DNA of 32,083 nucleotides from contig JACQWA010000279.1 in NCBI GenBank assembly GCA_016209425.1, positions 1-32,083 of the forward strand, read 5' to 3'. Below the pieces are notes generated by a model that searched no databases, was not told the DNA's origin, and saw only the letters and a program-made list of their open reading frames with translations. The DNA comes from Candidatus Rokuibacteriota bacterium (GTDB lineage: Bacteria > Methylomirabilota > Methylomirabilia > Rokubacteriales > CSP1-6). This document shows, one piece after another, positions 11,801-25,458 of this stretch. The position numbers and the translations under genes were made by a program. The first letter of the stretch is position 1; every line of letters begins with the position of its first letter.

Positions 11801-13234
11801 CAGCGGATCGAGATCCCCAGCCTCGCCGTGGTTTTGTCCATCGATCGCTCGGGCTCCATGGCCATGTCCACCGACGAAAAGGTCACGAAGCTCGACATCG
11901 CCAAAGAGGCCGGGCACCTGGTGGTGGACCTCCTGGACGAGCGCAACGAGGTGGGGGTGATGAGCTGGGACACCGAGTTCGTGTGGGATGTCCCGATGCA
12001 GACTGCGCGGAACAGGTCGTCCATCCACCACTCCGTCGCGACGATCAAGGCGGGGGGAGGCACGGACGGCTACCCGGCGCTCAAGGAAGCGTACCGGGCC
12101 CTCTTCGACCGCCAGGCTCTGCTGAAGCACGTCATCTTCCTCTCGGACGGGCAAATGACCCGCGGCGACTTTGCCGGCCTCATCCGCCGCATGGCCAAAG
12201 ACAAGATCACCGTGTCCTCCGTCGCCATCGGCAAGGATGCCGACGTCCAGCTCATGTTCGACATCGCCAAATGGGGCCGCGGGCGCTTCTACTACACCGA
12301 GGACACCCAGACGATTCCCCGGATCTTCACCCTGGAAACCCAGCTGGCCTCGAAGGCCTCGCTGATCGAACAGCCGTTCAGGCCGATCGTGTCGAGCTCA
12401 AGCCACGAGGTTCTCCAGGATATCGACTGGAAGAATTCGCCGCCGCTGGGCGGGTACGTGGCCACGACGCTCAAGGGGACCGCCGAGCAGCTGCTCATGA
12501 CCCATCAGGAGGACCCGCTGCTGGCCACGTGGCGGTACGGGCTGGGACGGACGGCTGCGTTCACGTCGGACGCGAAGGCGAAGTGGGGGGTCCTCTGGCT
12601 CCGTTGGGGGGCCTTTAACAAGTTCTGGGGCCAGCTGACGCGCTGGACTCTCCGGACCGGCAGCCGGAGCGACACCGTGGCAACCGTCGAGCGACGGGAC
12701 GGATTCGGTGAAATAACGGTGGACGCCGTTGACGCAAGGGGAGAGTTCATCAATTTCCTGGAGGCCGAGGTCGGAGTTGTCGCCCCGGACAAGCAACGTT
12801 CCGTGGTGGAGCTGGAACAGGTCGCTCCGGGCCGCTACCGGGGGCGGTTCCCGGCGCCCGAGGAGGGCGTCTACCTCGTCGGGCTGGCCCAACGCCGAGC
12901 CGAGAGAATGGTTGGCTCCCAGCTGGCAGGGTTGGTGGTACCCTATGCTCAGGAGTTCAGGGATCTGGGGGTGGACGAAACGCTGCTGCGTGAAGTGGCG
13001 GAGCTCACCGGAGGTGGGGCTGCGGCTGAGCCGAAGGACGCGTTCCTCCAGGCTCGGCGGCACTCCCGGCTCTCGGTCGAGCTCTGGCCCTGGCTCGTCG
13101 GGTGCGTGGCGGTGATGCTGCTGCCGGAGATCGCGCTCAGGCGGATCGGCCCAGGGTTTTTCACCCGGTTGAGAGGCCTCGGGGCAGCGTGGGGAACCTC
13201 TTCGGCACAGGGAGGTCGGACCCATGGGGCGTAA
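8840..13234 (+). CDS. Giant BatA-type membrane protein with three VWA domains
   Basis: A 1464-residue protein that looks like two or three Bat/VWA proteins joined. Residues 1-80 are the BatA N-terminal region with two membrane helices (FLSPLAFLLLALSVPLLLLYF and LLLLQLLALLALTVAVARPVV). VWA domain 1 follows, with MIDAS DPSAS (D95, S97, S99). Membrane helices near 587-606 and 624-646 separate it from VWA domain 2, with DMSDS (D660, S662, S664). Residues about 880-985 resemble a glutamine-amidotransferase-like domain (RPQVLLAEKDRSHAQAL, HGGGLIMLGGEESFGLGGY). VWA domain 3 has DRSGS (D1002, S1004, S1006). A final helix lies near 1415-1437. All three MIDAS motifs are intact. It should be the large envelope-facing partner of the MoxR ATPase; the ligand is unknown. 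The start overlaps the DUF58 stop (ATGA). Confidence 0.93.
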   Translation: MSFLSPLAFLLLALSVPLLLLYFLKVRRRERIVSSLLLWDPSLRDREASAFFQRLQRDPLLLLQLLALLALTVAVARPVVTITGQGAQRTVVILDPSASMRATDVSPSRFVAAQREALALVNRLPSGAEVMVIEAGMQPRVLVPFSRDRERITSAVKAVNGRDLPDRLSEAIRTARALTAQDPGAEIHVFTDGAHAPSPGDGSDDPRLQWVGVGRRGRNVGITNLAVRKAFFGAFGYEAFASVVNFSEEPQSFTFTLDLEEQQIAEQSLTLAPHVRRSVVLPFSHSGAGVVRARLHLTDDLSSDNVAYAVIPPPGQMQVLLVSPGNLFLEKALKADPQVTLEVRTPESYQGGMEAFDVVVLDSVSPARIGAGRYVLINTTPPDVPLENLGRLEQPVIMDWDRSHPIMRHVDFSKVIVEEGLRVRPLAAGKTLVEGVGGPLIYVVEEPRRKAVFFGFDLFKTDFPLRVAFPVMLSNGLRWLHPAGLDLTTFQLQAGQPILLPVEHGITSARVTTPSGRSVDAQVTRGLASFTETGQVGVYTVVTARGETRVAVNLMNAEESDITPRPLPTRKGARPSEAQAVPLQRELWGVFVLLAAALLVIEGLLYWRRQTAGRLTLPHGTGDRWALGLRCALVILLLGALLRPVVPRWVDRLNVMFLLDMSDSVSLAARENAYRFAVQALTGMQEGDQAGLIVFGQEAVLDQPLNPKPKLERPRTRVPGRGTNLAQAIQLALATLPAGHANRLVLLTDGRQNAGNALAVAQAAKDAGADIQYVPTPLTFLQEVVVESMLLPQEVKFGEPFDAKVVAWSQQETQGRLSLFRNGEFLGSQVVRLSPGKNVFTYRQSLEQRGIHVYQAAIEVEGDTIEENNRAVGTVVVRGRPQVLLAEKDRSHAQALGAALRTQHIDVEVVDPERIPKDMAGLQKYDGLILSNVSSLKLTKKQMEYIRDYVRDHGGGLIMLGGEESFGLGGYYRTPIEEALPVTMEVKQRIEIPSLAVVLSIDRSGSMAMSTDEKVTKLDIAKEAGHLVVDLLDERNEVGVMSWDTEFVWDVPMQTARNRSSIHHSVATIKAGGGTDGYPALKEAYRALFDRQALLKHVIFLSDGQMTRGDFAGLIRRMAKDKITVSSVAIGKDADVQLMFDIAKWGRGRFYYTEDTQTIPRIFTLETQLASKASLIEQPFRPIVSSSSHEVLQDIDWKNSPPLGGYVATTLKGTAEQLLMTHQEDPLLATWRYGLGRTAAFTSDAKAKWGVLWLRWGAFNKFWGQLTRWTLRTGSRSDTVATVERRDGFGEITVDAVDARGEFINFLEAEVGVVAPDKQRSVVELEQVAPGRYRGRFPAPEEGVYLVGLAQRRAERMVGSQLAGLVVPYAQEFRDLGVDETLLREVAELTGGGAAAEPKDAFLQARRHSRLSVELWPWLVGCVAVMLLPEIALRRIGPGFFTRLRGLGAAWGTSSAQGGRTHGA

Positions 13235-14588
13235 GGGGCGAGGGTGTTGGCTGCCGGCGTGGCTCGGTGTGTTGCTCCTCTCTGCTGCCTTGCTGACAGC
13301 GGCAGAAGTTCCGGCTTCGACGACGGCGTGGTCGCTTCTGGTTCTGCCGTTCCAGCCGCTGGAACTTGAGCGGGAGGAGCAATGGCTGGGGGAGGGGGTG
13401 GCTCACCTCCTTTCGCTCGCCTTGGTGAACCATCCTGCGTTTATCCTCGTGGACCCGCTCAGGGTCCGGCGGCTGGGTCAGCCGGAGGCGTGGGGGGAGG
13501 AAGTCATCCTCCGAACCGCACGGAGCATCCGAGCGGACCTGGCCTTTTACGGCGACGTCAAGCGAGTCTCGGGCGATCTTATCGTGGTGCCACGCTATAT
13601 GGAATTCAAGGGGGGGAACGCCCAGCCGCGGGCGCTGCCGCCGCTCACCGTCCCGGAAGGGAAAATCCCGCAGCGTCTCACCGGCCTGCCGCTGGCCTAC
13701 ATCCGCGCGCTCAACCTCCCGGTGACCGATGCCGAGGTCACCAGGATCGAGAAGGCTGCCATGTCCACCAAGTCGCTGCGCGCCTTCGAGGCCTTCGTCA
13801 AAGGGCGCGGGGCCGCGCTCCTGGGAACGCAGGCTGGCCACGAGGCTGCGGCGGACCTGCTCGGCAAGGCGGTGGAGCTGGACGCGACCTTCGTCGCGGC
13901 GCAGTACTCGCTCGGGCTGGCGCATTTGTCGCTGGGGAACCGCTGGAAGGCGGCGGCGCAGTTTCGCGCCTCAACCCAACTCGACCCAACCTTCCCCGAG
14001 CCGTACAAGGCCCTCGGTGACCTCTTTCTCGCGGCCCCGCGCCGCCTCTTCGATCAGGCCGTCGAGGCCTACCAGAAAGCGCTGGAGCTCCGCCCCTTTT
14101 ACGCTGATGCCTATGTCGGACTCGGAGACGCCAGGGCCGCCAAGAGTGACGTGGACGGCGCCATCTCAAGCTACCAGAAAGCGCTCCTCTACAATCCGGG
14201 AAATCCCAAGGTGCACATGAGCCTGGGGAAGATTTACTTCGCGGAAAAGGGACTGTACTACGAGGCTGTGGGCTCCTACAAGAAGGCGATCGAGCTGGAC
14301 CCCCAGTTCCTCGAGGCGCGCATGGGGCTCGGGGAAGTCTACGAGGACAAGGGACTCTACGAGGACGCCATCCGAGAGTACCGGAAAGTGGTGGAACTCG
14401 AACCCCAACACACCGGAGCCCTCTACAACCTCGCCTTGGTCTACGAGAGAGTGGATCCCCGTGAGGCCATCGCCCAGTGGGAGCGCTACATCCAGATCGC
14501 GGTGCTGCTCCCGGCGGAAAAGGACTGGGTGGATGTGGCCCGCCAGCACCTGAGGAAGCTCAAGACCCAGGTTGAACGGGATCGCTGA
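13224..14588 (+). CDS. Exported TPR-repeat protein
   Basis: A 454-residue protein with an N-terminal signal or anchor helix (PAWLGVLLLSAALLTAAE). A domain of about 130 residues follows (SLLVLPFQPLELEREEQWLGEG, ARSIRADLAFYGDVKRVSGDLIV) that recalls the TolB/FlgO-like N-terminal domain found in front of TPRs. At least six tetratricopeptide repeats lie at about residues 225-430, such as PYKALGDLFLAAP, AVEAYQKALELRPFYADAY and AIREYRKVVELEPQHTGALY. TPRs mediate protein-protein contacts, and BatA/MoxR operons often end in TPR proteins (BatC/BatE-like). The ATG at 13224 overlaps the preceding gene by 11 bases and has GGAGG upstream. Only two bases separate its stop from the convergent selenoglutaredoxin gene. 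Confidence 0.9.
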   Translation: MGRKGRGCWLPAWLGVLLLSAALLTAAEVPASTTAWSLLVLPFQPLELEREEQWLGEGVAHLLSLALVNHPAFILVDPLRVRRLGQPEAWGEEVILRTARSIRADLAFYGDVKRVSGDLIVVPRYMEFKGGNAQPRALPPLTVPEGKIPQRLTGLPLAYIRALNLPVTDAEVTRIEKAAMSTKSLRAFEAFVKGRGAALLGTQAGHEAAADLLGKAVELDATFVAAQYSLGLAHLSLGNRWKAAAQFRASTQLDPTFPEPYKALGDLFLAAPRRLFDQAVEAYQKALELRPFYADAYVGLGDARAAKSDVDGAISSYQKALLYNPGNPKVHMSLGKIYFAEKGLYYEAVGSYKKAIELDPQFLEARMGLGEVYEDKGLYEDAIREYRKVVELEPQHTGALYNLALVYERVDPREAIAQWERYIQIAVLLPAEKDWVDVARQHLRKLKTQVERDR

Positions 14589-14590
14589 CG

Positions 14591-14830
14591 CTAGATTCCC
14601 AAGAGGCGCTGAAGCCGTCCTTTGTCGAAGCCCACGACCACTTCCTCGTCCACGAGGATCACCGGCACCGCCGTCTGACCGGTTCGCCGAACCAACTCCT
14701 CCCGGGCCTCTTGATCCTCCAGCACGTTGACGTCGGTGAAGGCGACGCCCTTGGACGAAAGAAACTCTTTCGTCGCTCGGCAGGGGGCTCAGGTTGGGGT
14801 CGAGAACACAATCACGCGCCGCGCGACCAT
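14591..14830 (-). CDS. Selenocysteine-containing glutaredoxin-like protein (UxxC), read through in-frame TGA
   Basis: From ATG 14830 (GGAGG six bases upstream) the frame encodes 79 residues with a TGA at codon 14 (14791-14789) and a natural TAG end at 14591-14593. If TGA is selenocysteine, the start reads MVARRVIVFSTPTUAPCRA, the beta strand and redox motif of glutaredoxins with U14 in place of the first Cys of CxxC and C17 kept. The rest is also glutaredoxin-like: ATKEFLSSKGVAFTDVNV, then GQTAVPVILVD with the cis-Pro at 56, then VVVGFDKGRLQRLLG. No decay is seen on either side of the TGA. A hairpin in the right place downstream supports Sec insertion. The protein would be a cytoplasmic thiol/selenol reductase. 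The alternative is a nonsense mutation (TGC to TGA) in an ordinary glutaredoxin. Standard gene callers will miss or truncate it. Confidence 0.8.
14754..14774 (-). promoter_or_regulatory. Candidate bacterial SECIS hairpin
   Basis: On the minus strand, 14 bases after the TGA, a perfect 8-bp stem (GACGAAAG pairing with CTTTCGTC) closes a 5-base loop AGTTT. The loop begins 22 bases after the TGA and has G as its second base. Bacterial SECIS elements lie inside the coding region just 3' of the UGA, with the apical loop roughly 16-37 bases away and a G in the first two loop positions; this hairpin meets each of those points. Confidence 0.72.
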
Positions 14831-14906
14831 GCCGCACCTCCCGCTGGCTGAATCATGCCCGGTCCATTCTCGCATATCCTGTGGAAAACCGACAAATGCG
14901 GCGATC

Positions 14907-14935
14907 TTGACAGCCGCGGACCCCGCCGCTATTGT
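14907..14935 (+). promoter_or_regulatory. Sigma70-type promoter upstream of galT
   Basis: TTGACA (14907-14912, consensus) and TATTGT (14930-14935) are separated by 17 bases. Transcription would start near 14942, about 205 bases before the galT ATG at 15148, so the mRNA has a long leader. Confidence 0.7.
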
Positions 14936-15147: not shown

Positions 15148-16131
15148 ATGAGTGACCTGAGAAAGGACCCGACCCGTTCACAGTGGGTGCTGGTGCGACC
15201 GCGGGGCGCCGTCGGGCCGGAGGGGGCCGAGTGTCCCTTCTGCCCCGGCAACGAGTCGGCCACGCCGCCGGAGATTGCTGCCTATCGAAAGGAGGGGTCC
15301 GCCCCCAATAGTCCAGGCTGGCAGGTGCGGGTCATCCCGGAAGCCGACCCTTACTTTCGTGTGGAATGGGACCTGGTTCGCGAAGGGGTGGGGATGTACG
15401 ACAAGATCACCCCCCGCGGGGCCAGCGAGCTGATTATCGAGAGTCCGAGCCACGAGGACACGCTGGCTACGATGGGCCCGGACCAGCTCGAGCGCGTACT
15501 GTGGATGTACCGGGATCGGCTCGTCGATCTGAAGCGCGACACGAAGATCCGCGACATCCTCATCACCCGGCGACACCGAAAACCCGGTTCTCGTTTGACC
15601 CATCCGTATTCCAGGGTGACAGCGATTCCGGTCATCTTCGACGACCTTCGTCGGGAGCTCTGGGAGTCCCAAGACTACTACCAGTACAAGCACCGCTGCC
15701 TCTTCTGCGACATCCTCCGCCAGGAGCTGTCCGACGATGAACGCGTCGTGCGTCTCACGCCGTTTTTCCTGCTCGTGATCCCCTACGCGGCGCGCTCTCC
15801 CTTCGAGACCTGGGTCTTGCCCCGGCAACACGCATGCGCCTATGAGACGTTGTCGCCGGAGATAGCCGCCGACCTCGCCCGCCTGCTCACCGGATATTTC
15901 GGCGCCCTGGTGACGGGGCTGGGGAATCCCTCCTTCGAGTTGAGCCTGCACACGGCGCCGAACCTCCACTCGAAGATCCTTCAGGGAGAGTGGGCGACGA
16001 TCAGCGACGATTACCACTGGCACTTCGAGATCGTCATCCAGCCCGAGCGGGCCAACCGGCTGGGGGGCATTTTCATCAACGAGGTGCCCCCCGACGAAGC
16101 CGCCCGCCGCCTCCGCGAGGCCTGGCAGTAG
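15148..16131 (+). CDS. galT: Galactose-1-phosphate uridylyltransferase family protein, altered active site
   Basis: A 327-residue HIT-superfamily nucleotidyltransferase of the GalT type, starting at ATG 15148 (MSDLRKDPTRSQWVLVRP). The zinc-site pieces ECPFCPGNE and HRCLFCDILRQE are present, as are the GalT blocks SELIIESPSHEDTLA, HTAPNLHSKI and the C-terminal YHWHFEIVIQPE (H290, H292) with FINEVPPDEAARRLRE. The catalytic motif, normally HPHxQ with the second His as uridylylated nucleophile, reads HPYSR here (residues 152-156): His is Tyr and Gln is Arg. It is therefore either a divergent subfamily with another chemistry or substrate, or an inactive homologue. Family membership is sure; Leloir-pathway activity is doubtful. 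It forms a single-gene unit between the leader above and the isc promoter region. Confidence 0.85.
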   Translation: MSDLRKDPTRSQWVLVRPRGAVGPEGAECPFCPGNESATPPEIAAYRKEGSAPNSPGWQVRVIPEADPYFRVEWDLVREGVGMYDKITPRGASELIIESPSHEDTLATMGPDQLERVLWMYRDRLVDLKRDTKIRDILITRRHRKPGSRLTHPYSRVTAIPVIFDDLRRELWESQDYYQYKHRCLFCDILRQELSDDERVVRLTPFFLLVIPYAARSPFETWVLPRQHACAYETLSPEIAADLARLLTGYFGALVTGLGNPSFELSLHTAPNLHSKILQGEWATISDDYHWHFEIVIQPERANRLGGIFINEVPPDEAARRLREAWQ

Positions 16132-16348: not shown

Positions 16349-16783
16349 ATGCTCCGTTTCACCAAGCGGGCCGATTATGGGCTGATGGCAATCAATTATA
16401 TCGTCCTCCAGGGGGAGGACGGGGCGGTCAGCGCAAAGCGGATCGCCGAAGAGTTCGGCATGCCCCCGGAACTTCTCGCCAAGATCCTTCAGCGCCTGGC
16501 GAAGAAGGGGTTCATTGCCAGCCACAACGGCCCCAAGGGGGGCTATGTGCTGGCACGCTCGCCGGAGGAGATCACGGTGGGACAGGTCGTGCGGGCCCTG
16601 GAGGGGCCCATTCATATTGTGAGCTGTCTGGAGGACCTGGACTGCCCGCAGTATTCCCGCTGCAACCTTCGTAGCCCGGTACAGAAGATCCAGGCCAGCA
16701 TCAGCTATCTCCTGGACACGATGACCCTGGCTGAGCTGACCCGCGAAACCGTTCCCATCCAAGACCTCACCACGGTGAATTAG
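16349..16783 (+). CDS. iscR: Rrf2-family iron-sulfur regulator IscR
   Basis: A 144-residue transcription regulator with the Rrf2 winged helix (MLRFTKRADYGLMAINYI, VSAKRIAEEFGMPPELLAKILQRLAKKGFI, HNGPKGGYVLAR). The cluster-binding cysteines are C93, C99 and C105, spaced CX5CX5C as in E. coli IscR (C92, C98, C104). The His that completes the [2Fe-2S] site in E. coli (H107) corresponds to Arg108 here. It heads the isc operon and is preceded by an IscR-like operator, so negative autoregulation by the holo form is expected. The next gene starts 11 bases downstream with a good AGGAGA site. Confidence 0.93.
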   Translation: MLRFTKRADYGLMAINYIVLQGEDGAVSAKRIAEEFGMPPELLAKILQRLAKKGFIASHNGPKGGYVLARSPEEITVGQVVRALEGPIHIVSCLEDLDCPQYSRCNLRSPVQKIQASISYLLDTMTLAELTRETVPIQDLTTVN

Positions 16784-16794
16784 GAGAACCAGTC

Positions 16795-18021
16795 ATGGCG
16801 TTGAAGTTTCCCATTTTCATGGACAGCCACTCCACGACCCCGGTGGACCCGCGCGTGCTGGAGGTGATGATCCCCTACTTCACCGAGAAGTTCGGCCACC
16901 CCGGCAGCCGCAACCATCCCTTCGGCTGGGAGGCGGAGGCCGCAGCGGACAAGGCCCGCGAGCAGGTGGCCAAGCTGATCGGCGCCCGGGATCCGAAGGA
17001 AATCGTCTTCACCTCCGGGGGGACCGAGGCGATCAACCTGGCTCTGAAGGGCGTGGCCGAGATGTACCGGGAGAAGGGCACCCACATCGTCACGACCGGG
17101 ATCGAGCAGCGGGCCGGTCTCGACGTGTGCAAGCGGCTCGAGCGCCAGGGGTACCAGGTCACCTATGTCCCCGTGGGGGCTGACGGCCTCGTCGACGTTG
17201 AGGAAGTCCGCAAGGCAATTACCGACAAAACGATCCTGATCTCCGTGATGTTCGCCAACAACGAAATCGGCACGATCCAGCCGATCGCCGAGATCGGCAA
17301 GCTGGCCAAGCAGAGGGCGATCCTTTTCCACTGCGACGGGACTCAGGCCGTGGGGAAAATCCCCGTAGATGTCGAAGCCATGGCCATTGACCTCCTCTCC
17401 TGTACCGCCCACATGATCTACGGCCCGAAGGGAGTCGGGGCGCTCTACGTCCGCCGCAAGAATCCCCGGGTCCGGATCGCATCGATGATCGATGGCGGCG
17501 GCCATGAGCGTGGAATGCGGTCCGGGACGGTGCCGGTCCCCTTGACAGTGGGTTTCGGCAAGGCGGCCGAGATCTGCCGGGAAGCGATGGCTGAGGAGGG
17601 GGCCCGGTTGAAGGCGCTCAGGGACAAACTCCAGGACAAGATCCTCTCCTCGCTGGACGAGGCGTACCTGAACGGGCATCCGGAGAAGCGGCTCCCCCAC
17701 AATCTCAACGTCTCCTTCGCCTACGTGGAGGGGGAATCGGTCCTCATGGGGCTGAACAAAGAGGTGGCCCTCGCCTCGGGCTCGGCCTGCACCTCCGCGA
17801 CCCTGGAGCCCTCGTATGTGATCGCGGCGCTGGGGGTGGGATCGGAGCTGGCCCACTCGTCCATCCGGTTCGGCCTCCATCGGTTCACCATGGAGGAGGA
17901 GGTGGAGTACGTCGGGGATCGGACGGTCCAGGTCGTCACTCGACTTCGGGAAATGTCCCCCCTCTACGAGCTGGCGAAGGAGGGAGTGGACTTGAAGTCA
18001 ATCCACTGGAAGGCCGAATAG
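16795..18021 (+). CDS. iscS: IscS-type cysteine desulfurase homologue lacking the PLP lysine
   Basis: A 408-residue IscS by sequence along its full length: FTSGGTEAINLALKG, FANNEIGTIQP, CDGTQAVGKIPVD, GGGHERGMRSGTVPVP, ASGSACTSATLEPSYV with the sulfur-carrying C332, and the IscS C-terminus RLREMSPLYELAKEGVDLKSI. Two key positions are changed. Where IscS has SGHKIYGPKG, with Lys forming the Schiff base to PLP, this protein has TAHMIYGPKG, so Lys is Met207. The PLP-stacking His of TEHKAVLD is Gln105 (IEQRAGLD). It should not form an internal aldimine. It may act as a sulfur carrier or scaffold for IscU fed by another desulfurase, since the persulfide Cys loop is intact. An intact desulfurase lies 6 kb downstream. 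It sits second in the isc operon. Confidence 0.93.
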   Translation: MALKFPIFMDSHSTTPVDPRVLEVMIPYFTEKFGHPGSRNHPFGWEAEAAADKAREQVAKLIGARDPKEIVFTSGGTEAINLALKGVAEMYREKGTHIVTTGIEQRAGLDVCKRLERQGYQVTYVPVGADGLVDVEEVRKAITDKTILISVMFANNEIGTIQPIAEIGKLAKQRAILFHCDGTQAVGKIPVDVEAMAIDLLSCTAHMIYGPKGVGALYVRRKNPRVRIASMIDGGGHERGMRSGTVPVPLTVGFGKAAEICREAMAEEGARLKALRDKLQDKILSSLDEAYLNGHPEKRLPHNLNVSFAYVEGESVLMGLNKEVALASGSACTSATLEPSYVIAALGVGSELAHSSIRFGLHRFTMEEEVEYVGDRTVQVVTRLREMSPLYELAKEGVDLKSIHWKAE

Positions 18022-18049
18022 GGATCAGCGACCGATAGAGGAGGAGTCA

Positions 18050-18466
18050 ATGGCGTATAGCGAGAAAGTCATTGATCACTACAACAACCCGCGGAACGTG
18101 GGGTCCTTCCCGAAGGAGATCCCGGGCGTGGGGACGGGGCTCGTGGGGGCGCCGGAGTGCGGCGACGTCATGAAGCTCCAGATCAAGGTGAATCTGGATA
18201 CCGGGGTCATCGAGGACGCCAAGTTCAAGACCTTCGGGTGCGGCAGCGCCATCGCGTCGTCCAGCCTGGCCACCGAGTGGCTGAAGGGGAAATCCGTGGA
18301 CGAGGCGATGAAGATCAAGAACACGGACATCGTCAACGAGCTGAAGCTGCCGCCGGTGAAGATCCACTGCTCGGTGCTGGCCGAGGATGCCATCAAAGCC
18401 GCCTTGGCGGACTACCGGGGGAAGTGGGGGAAGAAGGAAGTCGCGGCAGGGGCTGCGACGTCATAA
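18050..18466 (+). CDS. iscU: Iron-sulfur cluster scaffold IscU
   Basis: A 138-residue IscU, the scaffold on which [2Fe-2S] clusters are built. The three cluster ligands are present: C37 (APECGDV, with D39), C64 (FGCGSAIASSS) and C107 (KIHCSVLAEDAI). The LPPVK motif at 100-104, recognised by the HscA chaperone, is intact, which fits the hscB and hscA genes further down the same operon. GAGGAG lies ahead of ATG 18050. All functional residues look normal, so the unusual IscS upstream is not part of a general decay of the operon. Confidence 0.97.
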   Translation: MAYSEKVIDHYNNPRNVGSFPKEIPGVGTGLVGAPECGDVMKLQIKVNLDTGVIEDAKFKTFGCGSAIASSSLATEWLKGKSVDEAMKIKNTDIVNELKLPPVKIHCSVLAEDAIKAALADYRGKWGKKEVAAGAATS

Positions 18467-18505
18467 GGATTGAGGCAACGTTCGACGAAGGAGGGTGAGT
18501 CTCAG

Positions 18506-18832
18506 ATGGCGGTGAATCTGAGCGAAGCGGCTCTGAAGCAGGTCAAGCAGCTTATGGTTGCCCAGAACCTCGAAAACGTCCATCTCCGGATGGGCGTGAA
18601 GGGAGGCGGCTGTTCGGGCCTCTCCTACTCCCTGGAGTTCGACAACGAGGTCGGGCCGCACGACAAGACCTTTGACATCGATGGGGTCAAGGTGGTCGTG
18701 GACGCCAAGAGCTATCTGTACCTGAACGGAACGACTCTGGACTACGTGACCCAGGGGCTCACGGGCGGCTTCACCTTCGTGAACCCCAGCGCCAAATCGA
18801 GCTGCGGCTGCGGGACGTCGTTCTCGGCCTAG
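18506..18832 (+). CDS. iscA: A-type iron-sulfur carrier IscA
   Basis: A 108-residue A-type carrier protein. ATG 18506 (MAVNLSEAALKQVKQLM) fits the family start; an upstream in-frame ATG at 18470 would add 12 unlikely residues. The three conserved Cys are C36 (GGGCSGLSYSL) and C100/C102 (SCGCGTSF). It passes clusters or iron to apo-proteins. A GGAGG lies about 11 bases upstream. The gene is followed by a 150-base gap with three hairpins ending in a strong terminator, so it is the last gene of the promoter-proximal half of the isc operon. Confidence 0.95.
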   Translation: MAVNLSEAALKQVKQLMVAQNLENVHLRMGVKGGGCSGLSYSLEFDNEVGPHDKTFDIDGVKVVVDAKSYLYLNGTTLDYVTQGLTGGFTFVNPSAKSSCGCGTSFSA

Positions 18833-18941
18833 GATGGGATTCCCCCGGTGGACCGGGGCCCCGGCTGTTCGGCATTCATCTCCTCCGAGGGAGGAGTGAG
18901 GGGGAGGCCGTCGTAGCGCGTCGCGCGCGACGGGCAGAGCG

Positions 18942-18973
18942 AAACGGGCCGCCGAGGGGCCCGTTTTCTTTTT
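18942..18973 (+). terminator. Intrinsic terminator inside the isc operon, with two preceding hairpins
   Basis: ACGGGCC (18944-18950) pairs with GGCCCGT (18958-18964) around a 7-base loop, followed at once by TTTTCTTTTT. Upstream in the same gap are two more perfect hairpins: CCCCGG/CCGGGG at 18843-18858, and CTCCTCC/GGAGGAG at 18880-18896. The latter contains Shine-Dalgarno-like and anti-Shine-Dalgarno-like arms. No promoter is visible between the terminator and hscB, so the downstream genes seem to depend on readthrough. Confidence 0.85.
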
Positions 18974-18982
18974 GAGTGGACG

Positions 18983-19717
18983 ATGACGGAGGCACGGAGA
19001 GGTGAGCAGGTGACCGGGTCGTCGCGGACCCTCTGCTGGAACTGCCAGTCGGCGGTGGGGGGAGAGTACTTTTGTCCCCAGTGCGTCAAGGTCCAGCCGG
19101 CGTCGGTATGGTCGGACTACTTCAGCGTGTTCGGCCTTCCCCGCAAGCTCGGGCTCGACCTCGGCGAGCTTCAGCAAAGGTTCTACGAGTGGAGTCGGAA
19201 GTTCCATCCGGATTTTTTCCAGCGGGCGACGCCCGAGGAGCAGGCCATCAGCCTGGAAAACTCCGCCCTGGTGAACACCGCCTATCGTGCCCTCCGGGAC
19301 CCGATCGCCCGCGTGGAGTACCTGATCGGGTTGGAAGAGGGGGCGGTGAAGGGGATCCCGCCCAGGGCCCCTCGGGACCTCCTGGAGGAGATGCTCGAGA
19401 TGCAGGAGGCGCTGGAGGAAGCCAAGACGTCCGCTCTCGACGCGGAGACGCGAAAGCGCCTCGAGGGCGAGCGCGAGCGCCTCGCCGAGCGACGGAAGGC
19501 CGAGGAGGCCAGGCTGATGGAGGTGGCCGGCGAGTGGGATGCGCTCGTGGGCGCGAGCGACCACGCCTCTCGCGAGCGGGACGCCGTCCGGCGCAAACTC
19601 CTTGACGGAATGAAGGAGATCCTGGCTGTGCGCGCCTATCTGACCACGGTCATCAACGATCTGAGCGAAGCGCTGGGAGAGGAAACGCACACGCATGTCT
19701 CGCATCGTCGGCATTGA
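18983..19717 (+). CDS. hscB: Co-chaperone HscB with N-terminal zinc finger
   Basis: A 244-residue J-protein that stimulates HscA and brings IscU to it. An N-terminal tetracysteine finger CWNC...CPQC (C18, C21, C31, C34) precedes the J-domain, as in mitochondrial HSCB and some bacteria; enterobacterial HscB lacks it. The J-domain includes YFSVFGLPRKLGLDLGELQQRFYEWSRKFHPDFF with HPD at 75-77. The C-terminal helices (RDLLEEMLEMQEALEEAK) match the IscU-binding domain. A long charged helix is inserted at about 150-200. The ATG lies just 9 bases after the terminator T-run with only a weak ribosome site; GTG 19010 is a possible alternative. It overlaps hscA by 23 bases. Confidence 0.92.
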   Translation: MTEARRGEQVTGSSRTLCWNCQSAVGGEYFCPQCVKVQPASVWSDYFSVFGLPRKLGLDLGELQQRFYEWSRKFHPDFFQRATPEEQAISLENSALVNTAYRALRDPIARVEYLIGLEEGAVKGIPPRAPRDLLEEMLEMQEALEEAKTSALDAETRKRLEGERERLAERRKAEEARLMEVAGEWDALVGASDHASRERDAVRRKLLDGMKEILAVRAYLTTVINDLSEALGEETHTHVSHRRH

Positions 19718-21530
19718 CCTCGGCACCACCAACAGCCTCGTCGCGTACATGGAGGGGGAGTTCCCCAGGGTCATCCCCGACGCCGAGGGGCACGTCCTCC
19801 TGCCCTCGGTGGTCGCCTTCACCGCCGACGGGATCCTGGTGGGAGAGGCGGCCAAGCGGCAGCTGGTCCGGAACCCGACGCAGACCATCTACTCGGTCAA
19901 GCGGTTCATGGGGAAGGGGTACGAGGACGTCAAGGAGGAACGGAGGTACTTCCCGTTCCAGATACTGGCCGATCACGAGGTGGTGAGGATCAGGGTGGAC
20001 GAGCGGGAGGTCACGCCGCCCGAGGTCTCGGCGCTGATTCTCAAGGCCTTGAAGGAGCGGGCCGCGACGAGCCTGGGCGAGCCAGTGACTAAGGCCGTCA
20101 TCACGGTCCCCGCCTACTTCAACGATAGCCAGCGTCAGGCGACCAAGGACGCGGGGCGGATTGCGGGGTTGGACGTTCAGCGGATCGTCAACGAGCCGAC
20201 CGCCGCGTCCCTCGCGTACGGGCTTCACCGGCTCAAGCAGGGGATCGTCGCGGTCTACGATCTGGGTGGCGGGACCTTCGACATCTCGATCCTCAGGGTG
20301 AAGGACGGGATCTTCGAGGTGCTGGCCACGAACGGCAACACCCATCTCGGCGGCGATGACTTCGACCGGGCTCTGGTGGACTGGCTCCTGGCCGACATTA
20401 GGGCCCATCACGGCGCCCACCTCGGCCAAGACCTCGAGGCGATGCAGGAACTCCGGCTCGGGGCGGAGGCCGCCAAGTGCCGCCTGTCTTTCGAGGATCG
20501 GACGGTGTTCACGATTCCGTTTCCCCAGCATGGATTCACCTACCGGCGGGAGATCCAGCGCTCGGACGTGGAGGCGCTGATCGAGCCCCTGGTCCAGCAC
20601 ACGCTGGGCCCGTGCCGGTTGGCCCTGGCCGACGCCGGCCTGGGCGCGGAGCAAATTGACGAGGTCGTCCTCGTTGGAGGCTCCACCCGGGTTCCCCTGG
20701 TGAAGCGGCGGGTCCAAGAGCTGTTCGGGAAACCTCCCCACAGCCAGCTGAACCCGGACGAGGTCGTCGCTCTCGGCGCGGCCGTCCAGGCCGACATTCT
20801 GGCGGGCGGCATCACGAACATGCTCCTGCTCGACGTCACGCCCCTCTCGCTCGGCATCGAGACGCTGGGGGGTGTCATGAGTGTGCTGATTCCGCGGAAC
20901 ACCACGATCCCGACCAGCGCCAAGGAACTGTTCACCACCTCTGTCGATGGGCAGACGGTGGTCGATATGCATGTCCTTCAAGGCGAGCGGGAACTCGCCA
21001 AAGACAACCGGTCCCTCGCCCGCTTCGAGCTCCGCGGCATCGACCCGATGCCCGCGGGGATGCCCCGGATCGAGGTGACGTTCCTCATCGACGCAAACGG
21101 CATCCTGCAGGTGCACGCGAAGGAGCTCAGGACCGGAAAGGCCGCCTCCATTGAGGTGAGGCCGTCGTACGGGCTCACCGATGGCGAGGTGGAGCAGATG
21201 ATCGAGGAATCTTTCGTTCATGCCGAAGAGGATATCGCCTCGCGGCTCCTGATCGAGACGCGCAACGAAGCGGACACGGTCGTCCGCGCCACGGAGCGGG
21301 CGCTGGGGCAGGGGAGCGGCCTGATCGCCGAGGACGAAGCGACTCGGATCCAAGAGGCGCTCGCGGCACTGAAGGCTGTCAGCGATGGGGACGACCGGGA
21401 GGCGATTCGTGAGGCAACGGAACGGCTCAACCACGCGACGCTTCACCTGGCCGAGGTCCTGATGGACTCCGCCCTCAAGGCGGCCCTGGCCTCGAAGCGG
21501 GTGACGGAGGCCCTGGAAAAGACAGAGTGA
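19695..21530 (+). CDS. hscA: Hsp70-type chaperone HscA
   Basis: A 611-residue Hsp70 specialised for iron-sulfur transfer. Hsp70 signatures are present: GIDLGTTNS (6-14), AVITVPAYFNDSQRQATKDAGRIAGL, IVNEPTAASLAYG, AVYDLGGGTFDISIL and VVLVGGSTRVPLVK. The substrate-binding domain begins near LLLDVTPLSLGIETLGG. The length fits HscA (about 615) rather than DnaK (about 640 with its acidic tail). Position between hscB and fdx, plus the LPPVK-bearing IscU in the operon, makes HscA the right call. It releases clusters from IscU at the cost of ATP in the cytoplasm. Confidence 0.96.
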   Translation: MSRIVGIDLGTTNSLVAYMEGEFPRVIPDAEGHVLLPSVVAFTADGILVGEAAKRQLVRNPTQTIYSVKRFMGKGYEDVKEERRYFPFQILADHEVVRIRVDEREVTPPEVSALILKALKERAATSLGEPVTKAVITVPAYFNDSQRQATKDAGRIAGLDVQRIVNEPTAASLAYGLHRLKQGIVAVYDLGGGTFDISILRVKDGIFEVLATNGNTHLGGDDFDRALVDWLLADIRAHHGAHLGQDLEAMQELRLGAEAAKCRLSFEDRTVFTIPFPQHGFTYRREIQRSDVEALIEPLVQHTLGPCRLALADAGLGAEQIDEVVLVGGSTRVPLVKRRVQELFGKPPHSQLNPDEVVALGAAVQADILAGGITNMLLLDVTPLSLGIETLGGVMSVLIPRNTTIPTSAKELFTTSVDGQTVVDMHVLQGERELAKDNRSLARFELRGIDPMPAGMPRIEVTFLIDANGILQVHAKELRTGKAASIEVRPSYGLTDGEVEQMIEESFVHAEEDIASRLLIETRNEADTVVRATERALGQGSGLIAEDEATRIQEALAALKAVSDGDDREAIREATERLNHATLHLAEVLMDSALKAALASKRVTEALEKTE

Positions 21531-23235: not shown

Positions 23236-24393
23236 ATGAACCGTCGCGTCTACCTGGATCACAACGCCTCAACCCCCGTGCACCCGGAGGTGGTGGCCGC
23301 GATGCTGCCCTACTTCGGGGAGTGCTTCGGCAACCCTTCCAGCATCCACGCCTTCGGGCGGGAGGCGCGCGAAGGCCTCGAGATCGGCCGGGAGCAAATC
23401 GCGTGCTTCCTCCGCGTCGGTAAGGAGGAGGTGATCTTCACCTCGGGAGGGACCGAGTCCGACAACCTGGCCATCAAGGGCGTCGCCGGGGCCCGGGGCG
23501 CCGGGCACATCATTACGTCGCAGATCGAACACCACGCGGTGCTCCGGACGTGCCAGTTCCTCGAAAGCCAGGGGTTTGCGGTGACATATCTTCCGGTCGG
23601 CGGGGACGGGGTGGTCGATCCCGACGACGTCAGGTGGGCCATCAGACCCGACACGATCCTGATCACGATCATGCACGCCAACAGCGAGGTGGGGACGATC
23701 CAGCCCGTGGAGGCTGTCGGGGCCATCGCGCGGGAGCGGGGGATCCCGTTCCACGTCGACGCCGTCCAGACCTTCGGCAAGATCCCCATCGACCTCGACG
23801 CCTTCGGCATTGACCTCCTCTCCTTCTCGAGCCACAAGATCTACGGTCCCAAGGGCGTGGCGGGCCTCTACATCCGGAAGCGCACGAAGATGGTGGCCAT
23901 CCAGCAGGGGGGGGAGCACGAGCGCCGCCGCCGGGCGGGCACGGAGAACGTCTCGGGCATTGTGGGGTTCGGGAAGGCGGTCGAGATCCGGTCCCGCGAG
24001 ATGGACGCCGAGGCGGTCCGCCTGACGGCTCTACGGAATCGATTCTGGGCGGGAGTGAGCGCCCGGGTGCCGGAGGTCAGGCTCAACGGGCACCCGACGC
24101 GGCGGCTCCCCGGCACGCTCAACATGTGCTTCAGGCACGTGGAGTCCGAATCCATCGTGCTGGGGCTCGATCTCAAGGGCGTGGGTGTCTCGGCTGGCTC
24201 GGCCTGCACGTCGGGCAACGTGGAGCCGTCGTACGTGCTGGTGGCCATGGGGGTTCCGCTCGACTGGGCTATGGGGGCGGTGCGCGCCACCCTGGGCCGT
24301 GACAACTCGGACGCCGACATCGACTACGTCCTGGAGGTCTTGCCGCCCCTGGTCGAACGGCTCCGAAGTCTGTCCCCGGCCGCGGTGTCATGA
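23236..24393 (+). CDS. Cysteine desulfurase (NifS/IscS family) with intact active site
   Basis: A 385-residue class V aminotransferase-fold cysteine desulfurase. The catalytic residues are all in place: H99 stacking on PLP (IEHHAVL), D and Q in HVDAVQTFGKI, the Schiff-base K201 (SFSSHKIYGPKG) and the persulfide C324 in AGSACTSGNVEPSYVL. It would convert cysteine to alanine and bind the sulfur as persulfide; relatives can also use selenocysteine. It heads an operon with a NifU-like scaffold (ATGA overlap) and CysE, a nif-like grouping. Since the IscS of the isc operon has lost its PLP lysine, this enzyme may be the real sulfur donor for both systems. That is inference. Confidence 0.95.
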   Translation: MNRRVYLDHNASTPVHPEVVAAMLPYFGECFGNPSSIHAFGREAREGLEIGREQIACFLRVGKEEVIFTSGGTESDNLAIKGVAGARGAGHIITSQIEHHAVLRTCQFLESQGFAVTYLPVGGDGVVDPDDVRWAIRPDTILITIMHANSEVGTIQPVEAVGAIARERGIPFHVDAVQTFGKIPIDLDAFGIDLLSFSSHKIYGPKGVAGLYIRKRTKMVAIQQGGEHERRRRAGTENVSGIVGFGKAVEIRSREMDAEAVRLTALRNRFWAGVSARVPEVRLNGHPTRRLPGTLNMCFRHVESESIVLGLDLKGVGVSAGSACTSGNVEPSYVLVAMGVPLDWAMGAVRATLGRDNSDADIDYVLEVLPPLVERLRSLSPAAVS

Positions 24394-24794
24394 ACTATAG
24401 CGAAACGCTCATCAATCACTTCAGGCACCCCCGGAACGCTGGAATGATGCGCGACCATGACGGGGTGGGGGAAGCGACCTTCGACGGCTGTGGCGACCTC
24501 GCCCGGTTCTACCTCAAGGTCATCGATGGTCGGGTGGCCGATGTCCGGTTTCAGACCTATGGGTGCGGGCCCACGATCGCGGCCTCCAGCGCCGGCAGCG
24601 AGTTGGCGGCCGGCCGGCCGGTCGCCGAGCTCCTCACGCTCAGCGAAGCGGAGATCACGGCGGCCCTGGATGGGCTTCCGGCCGAGCGCGTGCACGCGGC
24701 GCGGGTCGTCGCGGGCGCCATTCGGACCGCGGCCCGGGACTACCTGGCGAGGCGGGAGAGGTCGAGCGAAGCGAAGGCGGGGCGGCATGTTTGA
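24390..24794 (+). CDS. NifU/IscU-like scaffold lacking the third cysteine
   Basis: A 134-residue IscU-fold protein ([52 protein letters not shown]). Cys ligands C34 and C59 and the Asp after C34 are present. The third ligand, normally in the HCSVLAEDAI segment, is gone: the sequence reads [11 protein letters not shown], with A103 after H102. The LPPVK chaperone motif is replaced by LPAER, so HscA should not recognise it. It may hold a cluster with other ligands, act as a sulfur acceptor only, or bind another metal. The start overlaps the desulfurase stop (ATGA) and its end overlaps cysE, so the three are translated together. Confidence 0.88.
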
Positions 24795-25458
24795 GCTGAT
24801 GCGGCGGGACATCCGGACGGTTTTGGAGCGTGATCCGGCGGCGCGGTCGGCGCTCGAGGTCGTGCTCTGTTACCCCGGGGTCCACGCCATCTGGCTTCAC
24901 CGCATCGCCCACCGGCTGTGGGGGTGGGGCTGGCGTACCGTGGCTCGCTTCGTGTCCCACGTGAGCCGGTTCCTGACCGGGATCGAGATTCATCCGGCCG
25001 CGAGGATCGCGCCGGGGTTGTTCATCGATCACGGCATGGGCGCGGTCATCGGGGAGACGTCCGAGATTGGGGAGAACGTGACGCTCCTCCAGGGGGTGAC
25101 GCTGGGTGGGACCAGCCTCAAGCGAGAAAAGCGCCACCCCACGCTCGGGAATAACGTGGTGGTGGGAGCCGGGGCTAAGATCATCGGCGCGTTCACGATC
25201 GGCGCCGGAAGCCGGATCGGGGCCGGGTCCGTGGTCGTCCGGGAAGTTCCCCCCAACTCGGTGGTCGTCGGGGTGCCGGGGCGCGTCACGTTCAAGGATG
25301 GTCAGCGGGTGCCGGGAGAGATCGACCTGAATCAGACCGACCTTCCGGATCCCCTCGCGAAGGCGATCGAGCAGCTGTTGGAGCGGATTCAGCACCTGGA
25401 GTCCGAGGTGCAGGCGTTGCGCAACACTCTGGACGAGGCAAAAGTCGGGCGCCTCTGA
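24787..25458 (+). CDS. cysE: Serine O-acetyltransferase CysE
   Basis: A 223-residue serine acetyltransferase, which makes O-acetylserine for cysteine synthesis. ATG 24787 ([24 protein letters not shown]) gives the short CysE form and overlaps the preceding gene by 8 bases. The hexapeptide left-handed helix carries [27 protein letters not shown], with the catalytic Asp-His pair, then [16 protein letters not shown] and [11 protein letters not shown]. The C-terminus ends in a coiled-coil-like helix ([21 protein letters not shown]). Its coupling to a cysteine desulfurase and scaffold suggests that cysteine supply is matched to sulfur mobilisation, as in nif-associated cysE genes. Confidence 0.95.

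Follow-up and report, generated by a model that had tools for sequence, protein, structure and literature searches.

The minus-strand open reading frame at 14830-14591 of the window, by which we mean the whole 32,083-nt stretch of Candidatus Rokuibacteriota DNA analysed here, is very probably a functional selenoprotein gene. Judging from sequence comparisons, we put the probability at about 0.97 that it encodes a UxxC thiol (selenol) oxidoreductase with a glutaredoxin fold, of the YruB/Cp9/cGrx1 type, in which an in-frame TGA specifies selenocysteine (Sec). A first-pass annotation had proposed the Sec reading from the letters alone, and every test that we ran supported it. What we add to that proposal is a conserved and covarying bSECIS hairpin downstream of the TGA. 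As a Sec-glutaredoxin with a UxxC motif and of YruB/Cp9 type, the gene belongs to an already known kind; because UxxC Sec-glutaredoxins have been listed since 2005-2006, it constitutes a new example of a known protein type. Ordinary gene finding would miss the gene because its active-site residue is encoded by a stop codon.

The gene and its product

The Sec-glutaredoxin gene (14591..14830, minus strand) comprises 80 codons including the TAG stop, and thus specifies 79 amino acids with Sec at residue 14. On the minus strand its DNA reads ATG ... ACC-TGA-GCC-CCC-TGC ... ATC-TAG. The start ATG (14830-14828) is preceded at a distance of 6 nt by a Shine-Dalgarno site, GGGAGG (14837..14842, read from the sequence), the Sec codon TGA (codon 14; 14789..14791) opens the UxxC motif U-A-P-C, the codon TGC for the resolving Cys17 lies at 14780..14782, and the TAG stop at 14593-14591, all on the minus strand. 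The N-terminal part with the active site is MVARRVIVFSTPT-U-APC-RATKEFLSS…, and the full product, with TGA translated as U, is MVARRVIVFSTPTUAPCRATKEFLSSKGVAFTDVNVLEDQEAREELVRRTGQTAVPVILVDEEVVVGFDKGRLQRLLGI. The interval 14591-14830 given by the first-pass annotation was exact, although the minus strand had gone unmentioned; read on the plus strand, the same interval gives a nonsense translation and no protein of interest. The string STPT-TGA-APC on which that annotation relied is present letter for letter, the Shine-Dalgarno site that it claimed is the GGGAGG described above, and the natural stop that it placed 65 codons on is indeed separated from the TGA by 65 sense codons. At the locus, a search for a terminator found none, and a promoter-like match is present at 14907 on the plus strand, on the galT side.

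The claim that glutaredoxin sequence is intact on both sides of the TGA is borne out by the domain searches. When the TGA is read as Cys, residues 6-65 match positions 1-60, which is the whole model, of Pfam Glutaredoxin PF00462 (E 9e-20, 71 bits; cut-off 22.9 bits). The best of all families is NCBIfam YruB TIGR02196 (86.3 bits with TGA as Cys, just under its cut-off of 88.55), and the NCBIfam family Uxx-star NF041212 matches the same region with 59.6 bits, which is below its cut-off of 66. An AlphaFold model of the protein (pLDDT 94.8) has the Trx fold, and its Foldseek matches are to glutaredoxins.

Conservation of the TGA codon

In a search of 60 relatives, 50 matches scored above 60 bits and included the site, two of them from the window's own genome; all 50 have TGA at residue 14, and each has one TGA inside. 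Base-by-base reading of 30 loci placed the TGA exactly at the UxxC position in every case (30/30), with Cys17 invariant. The nearest homologue in a scan of named genomes comes from Candidatus Rokubacteria (87% identity). Homologues that carry TGC or TGT opposite the TGA of codon 14 were found in Chloroflexota, Bacteroidota, Omnitrophota, Patescibacteria, methanogens and others, so that both the CxxC homologues and the further UxxC members that the first-pass annotation had suggested looking for by alignment were found. In total, 57 distinct Sec sequences and 38 distinct Cys sequences were gathered, the latter from other phyla. Since all 38 have Cys at this site, Sec sits at the position of the catalytic Cys.

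The sequence on both sides of the TGA is under selection. Downstream of it, in codons 28-79, dN/dS ranges from 0.04 to 0.42, and in the 13 codons upstream, which offer few sites, it is mostly below 0.6. These values bear on the possibility that the UGA serves chiefly for regulated termination, with a 13-residue peptide as the usual product and read-through as an incidental event. Sec insertion is generally inefficient and dependent on selenium, which would suit such an arrangement. However, the 65 codons after the TGA are under strong amino-acid constraint, from which it follows that selection maintains the full-length protein, and we therefore consider a mainly regulatory role of the UGA very improbable. 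Slightly less probable still is a pseudogene or an assembly error, in which case the TGA would be either a nonsense mutation of recent origin or a TGC or TGT mis-called in one metagenome-assembled genome (MAG). The window does come from a fragmented MAG and a single base separates TGA from TGC or TGT, but independent assemblies representing numerous genera and families of the class have the same TGA, and purifying selection acts on both sides of it with no further lesions; the conservation of TGA and frame throughout the class refutes this reading. Decay around the TGA in orthologues, named at the outset as an observation that would speak against Sec, was not seen; the TGA and the frame on both sides of it are kept.

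In a tree of the Sec and Cys forms, a weakly supported branch separates off a side that contains 52 Sec sequences and no Cys form, and the five other Sec sequences sit among Cys forms. The tree implies five changes between Sec and Cys in all, as against 30 expected with shuffled labels; it is built on few columns, and gain and loss cannot be separated in it. Two sequences that are near-identical or close to Rokubacterial ones stem from MAGs labelled as other phyla (L079, Elusimicrobia GWA2_69_24, and L070, Myxococcales nzgw250), and are probably misbinned contigs or the result of recent transfer. The genome of Nitrospinae AH_259_B05_G02_I21 contains a Cys form without the hairpin (L082) alongside a Sec form whose hairpin is strongly covaried (L121).

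The bSECIS hairpin

The bSECIS hairpin, GACGAAAGA-GUU-UCUUUCGUC, lies inside the coding sequence at 14754..14774 on the minus strand, with a 14-nt core, AAAGAGTTTCTTTC, at 14757-14770 on the same strand; its assignment draws on the fold, on covariation and on its absence from most Cys forms. It begins 14 nt past the UGA, at offset 17 counted from the T of TGA, and consists of 9 bp with the loop GUU, or 8 bp with the loop AGUUU, with an energy of -10.9 kcal/mol and its apical loop 23 nt after the UGA. The published bSECIS consensus has an apical loop of 3-9 nt on an upper stem of 4-16 bp, a G in the first two loop positions that is usually followed by G or U, a distance of 16-37 nt between the UGA and the apical loop, and an energy of at most -7.5 kcal/mol (PMC13188914). 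The window hairpin agrees with this consensus in all four constraints, the loop G being present whether the loop is read as GUU or as A-G-U-U-U with the closing A-U pair.

Taken alone, the window hairpin is only mildly unusual (z -1.4 to -1.8; p of about 0.03 against a synonymous-codon null, whose codon usage was taken from 14 genes, one of which, 15150-16131, was read in a frame displaced by two bases and contributed a small share). Because folding of single sequences is a weak test, we used a comparative one, and the support for the hairpin is thus comparative; this result is independent of the misframed gene. Among 55 distinct Sec sequences, 94.3% of the pair cells are formed, 16 cells are double-sided (compensatory), and 11 additional pair types are seen. 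In 2000 column shuffles the means were 88% paired, 2.1 double-sided cells and 6.4 pair types, and the observed values were reached in 0/2000, a figure that is not a probability, as the shuffles ignore relatedness. Sliding the partner strand lowered the pairing to 47-68%, compared with 94.3% in register. Compensatory changes from C-G to A-T and from A-T to G-C distinguish the Rokubacterial form (GACGAAAGA/UCUUUCGUC) from that of the Methylomirabilia (GAGAAAGA/UCUUUCUC), and the Nitrospinae Sec form L121 shows several compensatory changes in the hairpin.

The 38 distinct Cys forms, in contrast, are mostly unpaired in the same columns, and the mean fold energy is -10.4 kcal/mol for Sec forms against -2.9 kcal/mol for Cys forms. 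The codons AAA GAG TTT CTT (K, E, F, L) are kept in 91-100% of the Sec forms, compared with 14-49% of the Cys forms that have the same residue, and AAA and TTT are minority codons in the window, whose GC content is 66% (37 of 235 Lys codons and 34 of 195 Phe codons). The scan of contigs employed a peptide pattern containing KEFLS, which biases the frequency of KEFLS in locus L064 and later ones and leaves codon choice and residue 14 unbiased; the genome-search set (L022-L051) is free of this bias. In each of ten comparisons, the hairpin codons showed less synonymous change than the codons downstream; for the two nearest, for example, pS was 0.20 in the hairpin codons versus 0.58 and 0.66 downstream. 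The whole genome contains three copies of the 14-nt core, all of them within Sec-glutaredoxin genes (in the window and on contigs C393 and C161). A Cys form (TGT) from Syntrophomonadaceae (L112:3001-3228) keeps GTG AAA GAG TTT CTT TCA and a hairpin of -5.2 kcal/mol, and is found in a genome that has SelB; this hairpin is possibly a SECIS fossil left after a change from Sec to Cys.

The selenocysteine machinery

The window belongs to a MAG of 4.45 Mb in 449 contigs, with an estimated completeness of 94% and a contamination of 4.2%. The first-pass annotation had named selA, selB, selC and selD as genes to be sought, and had considered that absence of the first three would tell against it; all four are present in this assembly, on contigs other than that of the window. 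Contig C423 carries selA (584 bits), selB (381 bits) and the tRNA-Sec gene together, the last with 70.9 bits and with an anticodon identified by ARAGORN as TCA (UCA in RNA). Contig C441 carries selD (343 bits), which has an in-frame TGA near its N-terminus, within the motif AGU-ASK (G000:C441, L017). Interrupted by this TGA, the selenophosphate synthetase of the Rokubacterium genome is also a predicted selenoprotein. Of the 60 relatives, 55 gave a SelB match, which exceeded the family cut-off in 54. The other five include genomes with a TGA homologue (e.g. G021, G031 and G049), and presumably lack the sequence through incomplete assembly.

A genome-wide reassignment of TGA, for example to Trp or Gly, would also yield an in-frame TGA within an intact gene translated under a variant code, but this explanation is the least probable of those considered and can be set aside, since TGA serves as the normal stop of many genes in the window (among them those for the TPR protein and HscA), the genome encodes tRNA-Sec and SelB, the TGA codons of the redoxin genes and selD stand at catalytic Cys sites where homologues have Cys rather than Trp or Gly, and no conserved Trp or Gly position encoded by TGA was seen in the window.

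Relation to known redoxins and proposed function

The solved structure closest to the AlphaFold model is Grx1 of Clostridium (Alkaliphilus) oremlandii (cGrx1; PDB 7c10, 7c12 and 7c13), with 51% identity, 0.9 Å and a TM score of 0.91. The two proteins have the same fold, Sec at the same position of a UxxC motif, and the KEFLS and VGFD motifs in common, and they differ in the pair of residues within the active site, which is P-H in cGrx1 and A-P in the Rokubacterium protein. cGrx1, a selenoprotein in its native form with UPxC as active site, was crystallised with Cys replacing Sec, and it has been proposed to be the reductant of a Sec-containing methionine sulfoxide reductase (PMC7642778). The next profile match is Bacillus cereus BC3987 (3zij), which groups with the Cp9/YruB redoxins (PMC3720550). 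This family (TIGR02196, with Cp9 of C. pasteurianum) and BC3987 resemble the Rokubacterium protein in size (75-80 aa) and in the conserved cis-Pro and Gly-Phe positions, but have CxxC instead of UxxC. Sec-glutaredoxins with UxxC are on record from the Sargasso Sea set (PMC1088965), which contributed ten sequences, and from Geobacter, Moorella and Alkaliphilus (PMC1794560); a 2026 review lists them as established (PMC13188914). By description, these proteins are alike in being UxxC glutaredoxins with a bSECIS element after the UGA, whereas cGrx1 was compared by profile and structure. The Uxx-star family (NF041212) and the UXX-star families 1-3 are likewise glutaredoxin-like selenoproteins matched by the same region; UXX-star 1 differs in having UxxT and no resolving Cys (PMC13188914).

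With respect to the reductant, cGrx1 is described as being reduced by glutathione and paired with Sec-MsrA, whereas genes for glutathione synthesis were not found in the Rokubacterium genome. That search used models for glutathione synthetase (PF02955) and the GshA-type ligase (PF04262) on one MAG of 94% completeness, and leaves other routes uncovered. The genome does encode a thioredoxin reductase (402 bits). Taken together, this gene content suggests that glutathione is probably not the reductant of the Sec-glutaredoxin. In the mechanism that we propose, SelB and tRNA-Sec(UCA) would decode the UGA of codon 14 as Sec at the in-frame hairpin, Sec14 would act as the nucleophile, and Cys17 would resolve the mixed selenyl-sulfide. 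Thioredoxin reductase or a different dithiol system, in preference to glutathione, would then most likely return the oxidised protein to its reduced state. In C. pasteurianum, Cp9 is located between the genes for thioredoxin reductase and peroxiredoxin (PMC3720550). Our best guess, drawn from the analogous proteins Cp9 and C. oremlandii Grx1, is that the clients may be of the peroxiredoxin or methionine sulfoxide reductase type.

A wider view, which we offer tentatively and hold to be possible rather than probable, is that the Sec form has become fixed as a clade-wide, Sec-only redoxin whose hairpin froze about five codons and thereby dictates KEFLS, and which might serve, in several paralogous copies, as a glutathione-independent redox hub fed by thioredoxin reductase in a selenoprotein-rich lineage. 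In our opinion the most interesting part is the extent to which the hairpin fixes codons, and through them residues, across the whole class, and the set of 57 Sec and 38 Cys forms allows the absence of the SECIS hairpin from Cys forms to be read directly. Our understanding of the mechanism of Sec insertion is not changed by these findings. They do imply that a conserved small redox gene of a widespread uncultured lineage of soil and groundwater is likely to be overlooked or truncated wherever annotation is done without Sec recoding. In the literature on selenoproteins of Rokubacteria we found nothing specific except a single sentence, on a Methylomirabilota MAG predicted to encode 63 selenoproteins (PMC13188914), and the Sec-glutaredoxin fits the unusually large selenoproteomes reported there for this phylum.

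Genomic neighbourhood and other redoxins

The Sec-glutaredoxin gene is flanked by a convergent gene for a TPR-repeat protein (13224..14588, plus strand) and a divergent gene for a galactose-1-phosphate uridylyltransferase-like protein (15148..16131, plus strand; likely start ATG 15148). Both neighbours are kept in seven relatives, which have in common the gene order TPR protein, Sec-glutaredoxin, GalT-like protein, Rrf2 regulator and IscS. The TGA is kept in all seven of these syntenic relatives, with flanks that are about 88% identical. In a scan of 321 TGA contexts in the window, the Sec-glutaredoxin site alone was aligned to a stop in 7/7. Some other contexts showed a stop in every matched subject, with 1 to 5 subjects each, and these are, as far as inspected, shadow frames of other genes.

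An Fe-S assembly cluster for an Rrf2 regulator, IscS, IscU, IscA, HscB and HscA (window 16349-21530) lies just past the GalT gene, 1.5-7 kb from the Sec-glutaredoxin gene, and a functional link between the two is possible. Downstream of this cluster are genes for a second, NifS-like cysteine desulfurase (23236-24393) and a CysE-like serine acetyltransferase (24457-25458).

Two further Sec-glutaredoxin genes are present in the same genome, at G000:C393:5374-5607 (L052) and G000:C161:2-142 (L054), the latter cut by the end of its contig. Both are of the QPGUGSC type, the form typical of Methylomirabilia, with the hairpin GAGAAAGA/UCUUUCUC, and could represent near-duplicates or variants from different strains. 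A more distant redoxin with an in-frame TGA and a C-terminal extension, KLYYRPGUSSC..., is encoded at G000:C264:7104-7319 (L053). Its best matches, all of them below threshold, are YruB, NrdH and Uxx-star, and many relatives of the same family have similar long-frame matches that contain one TGA.
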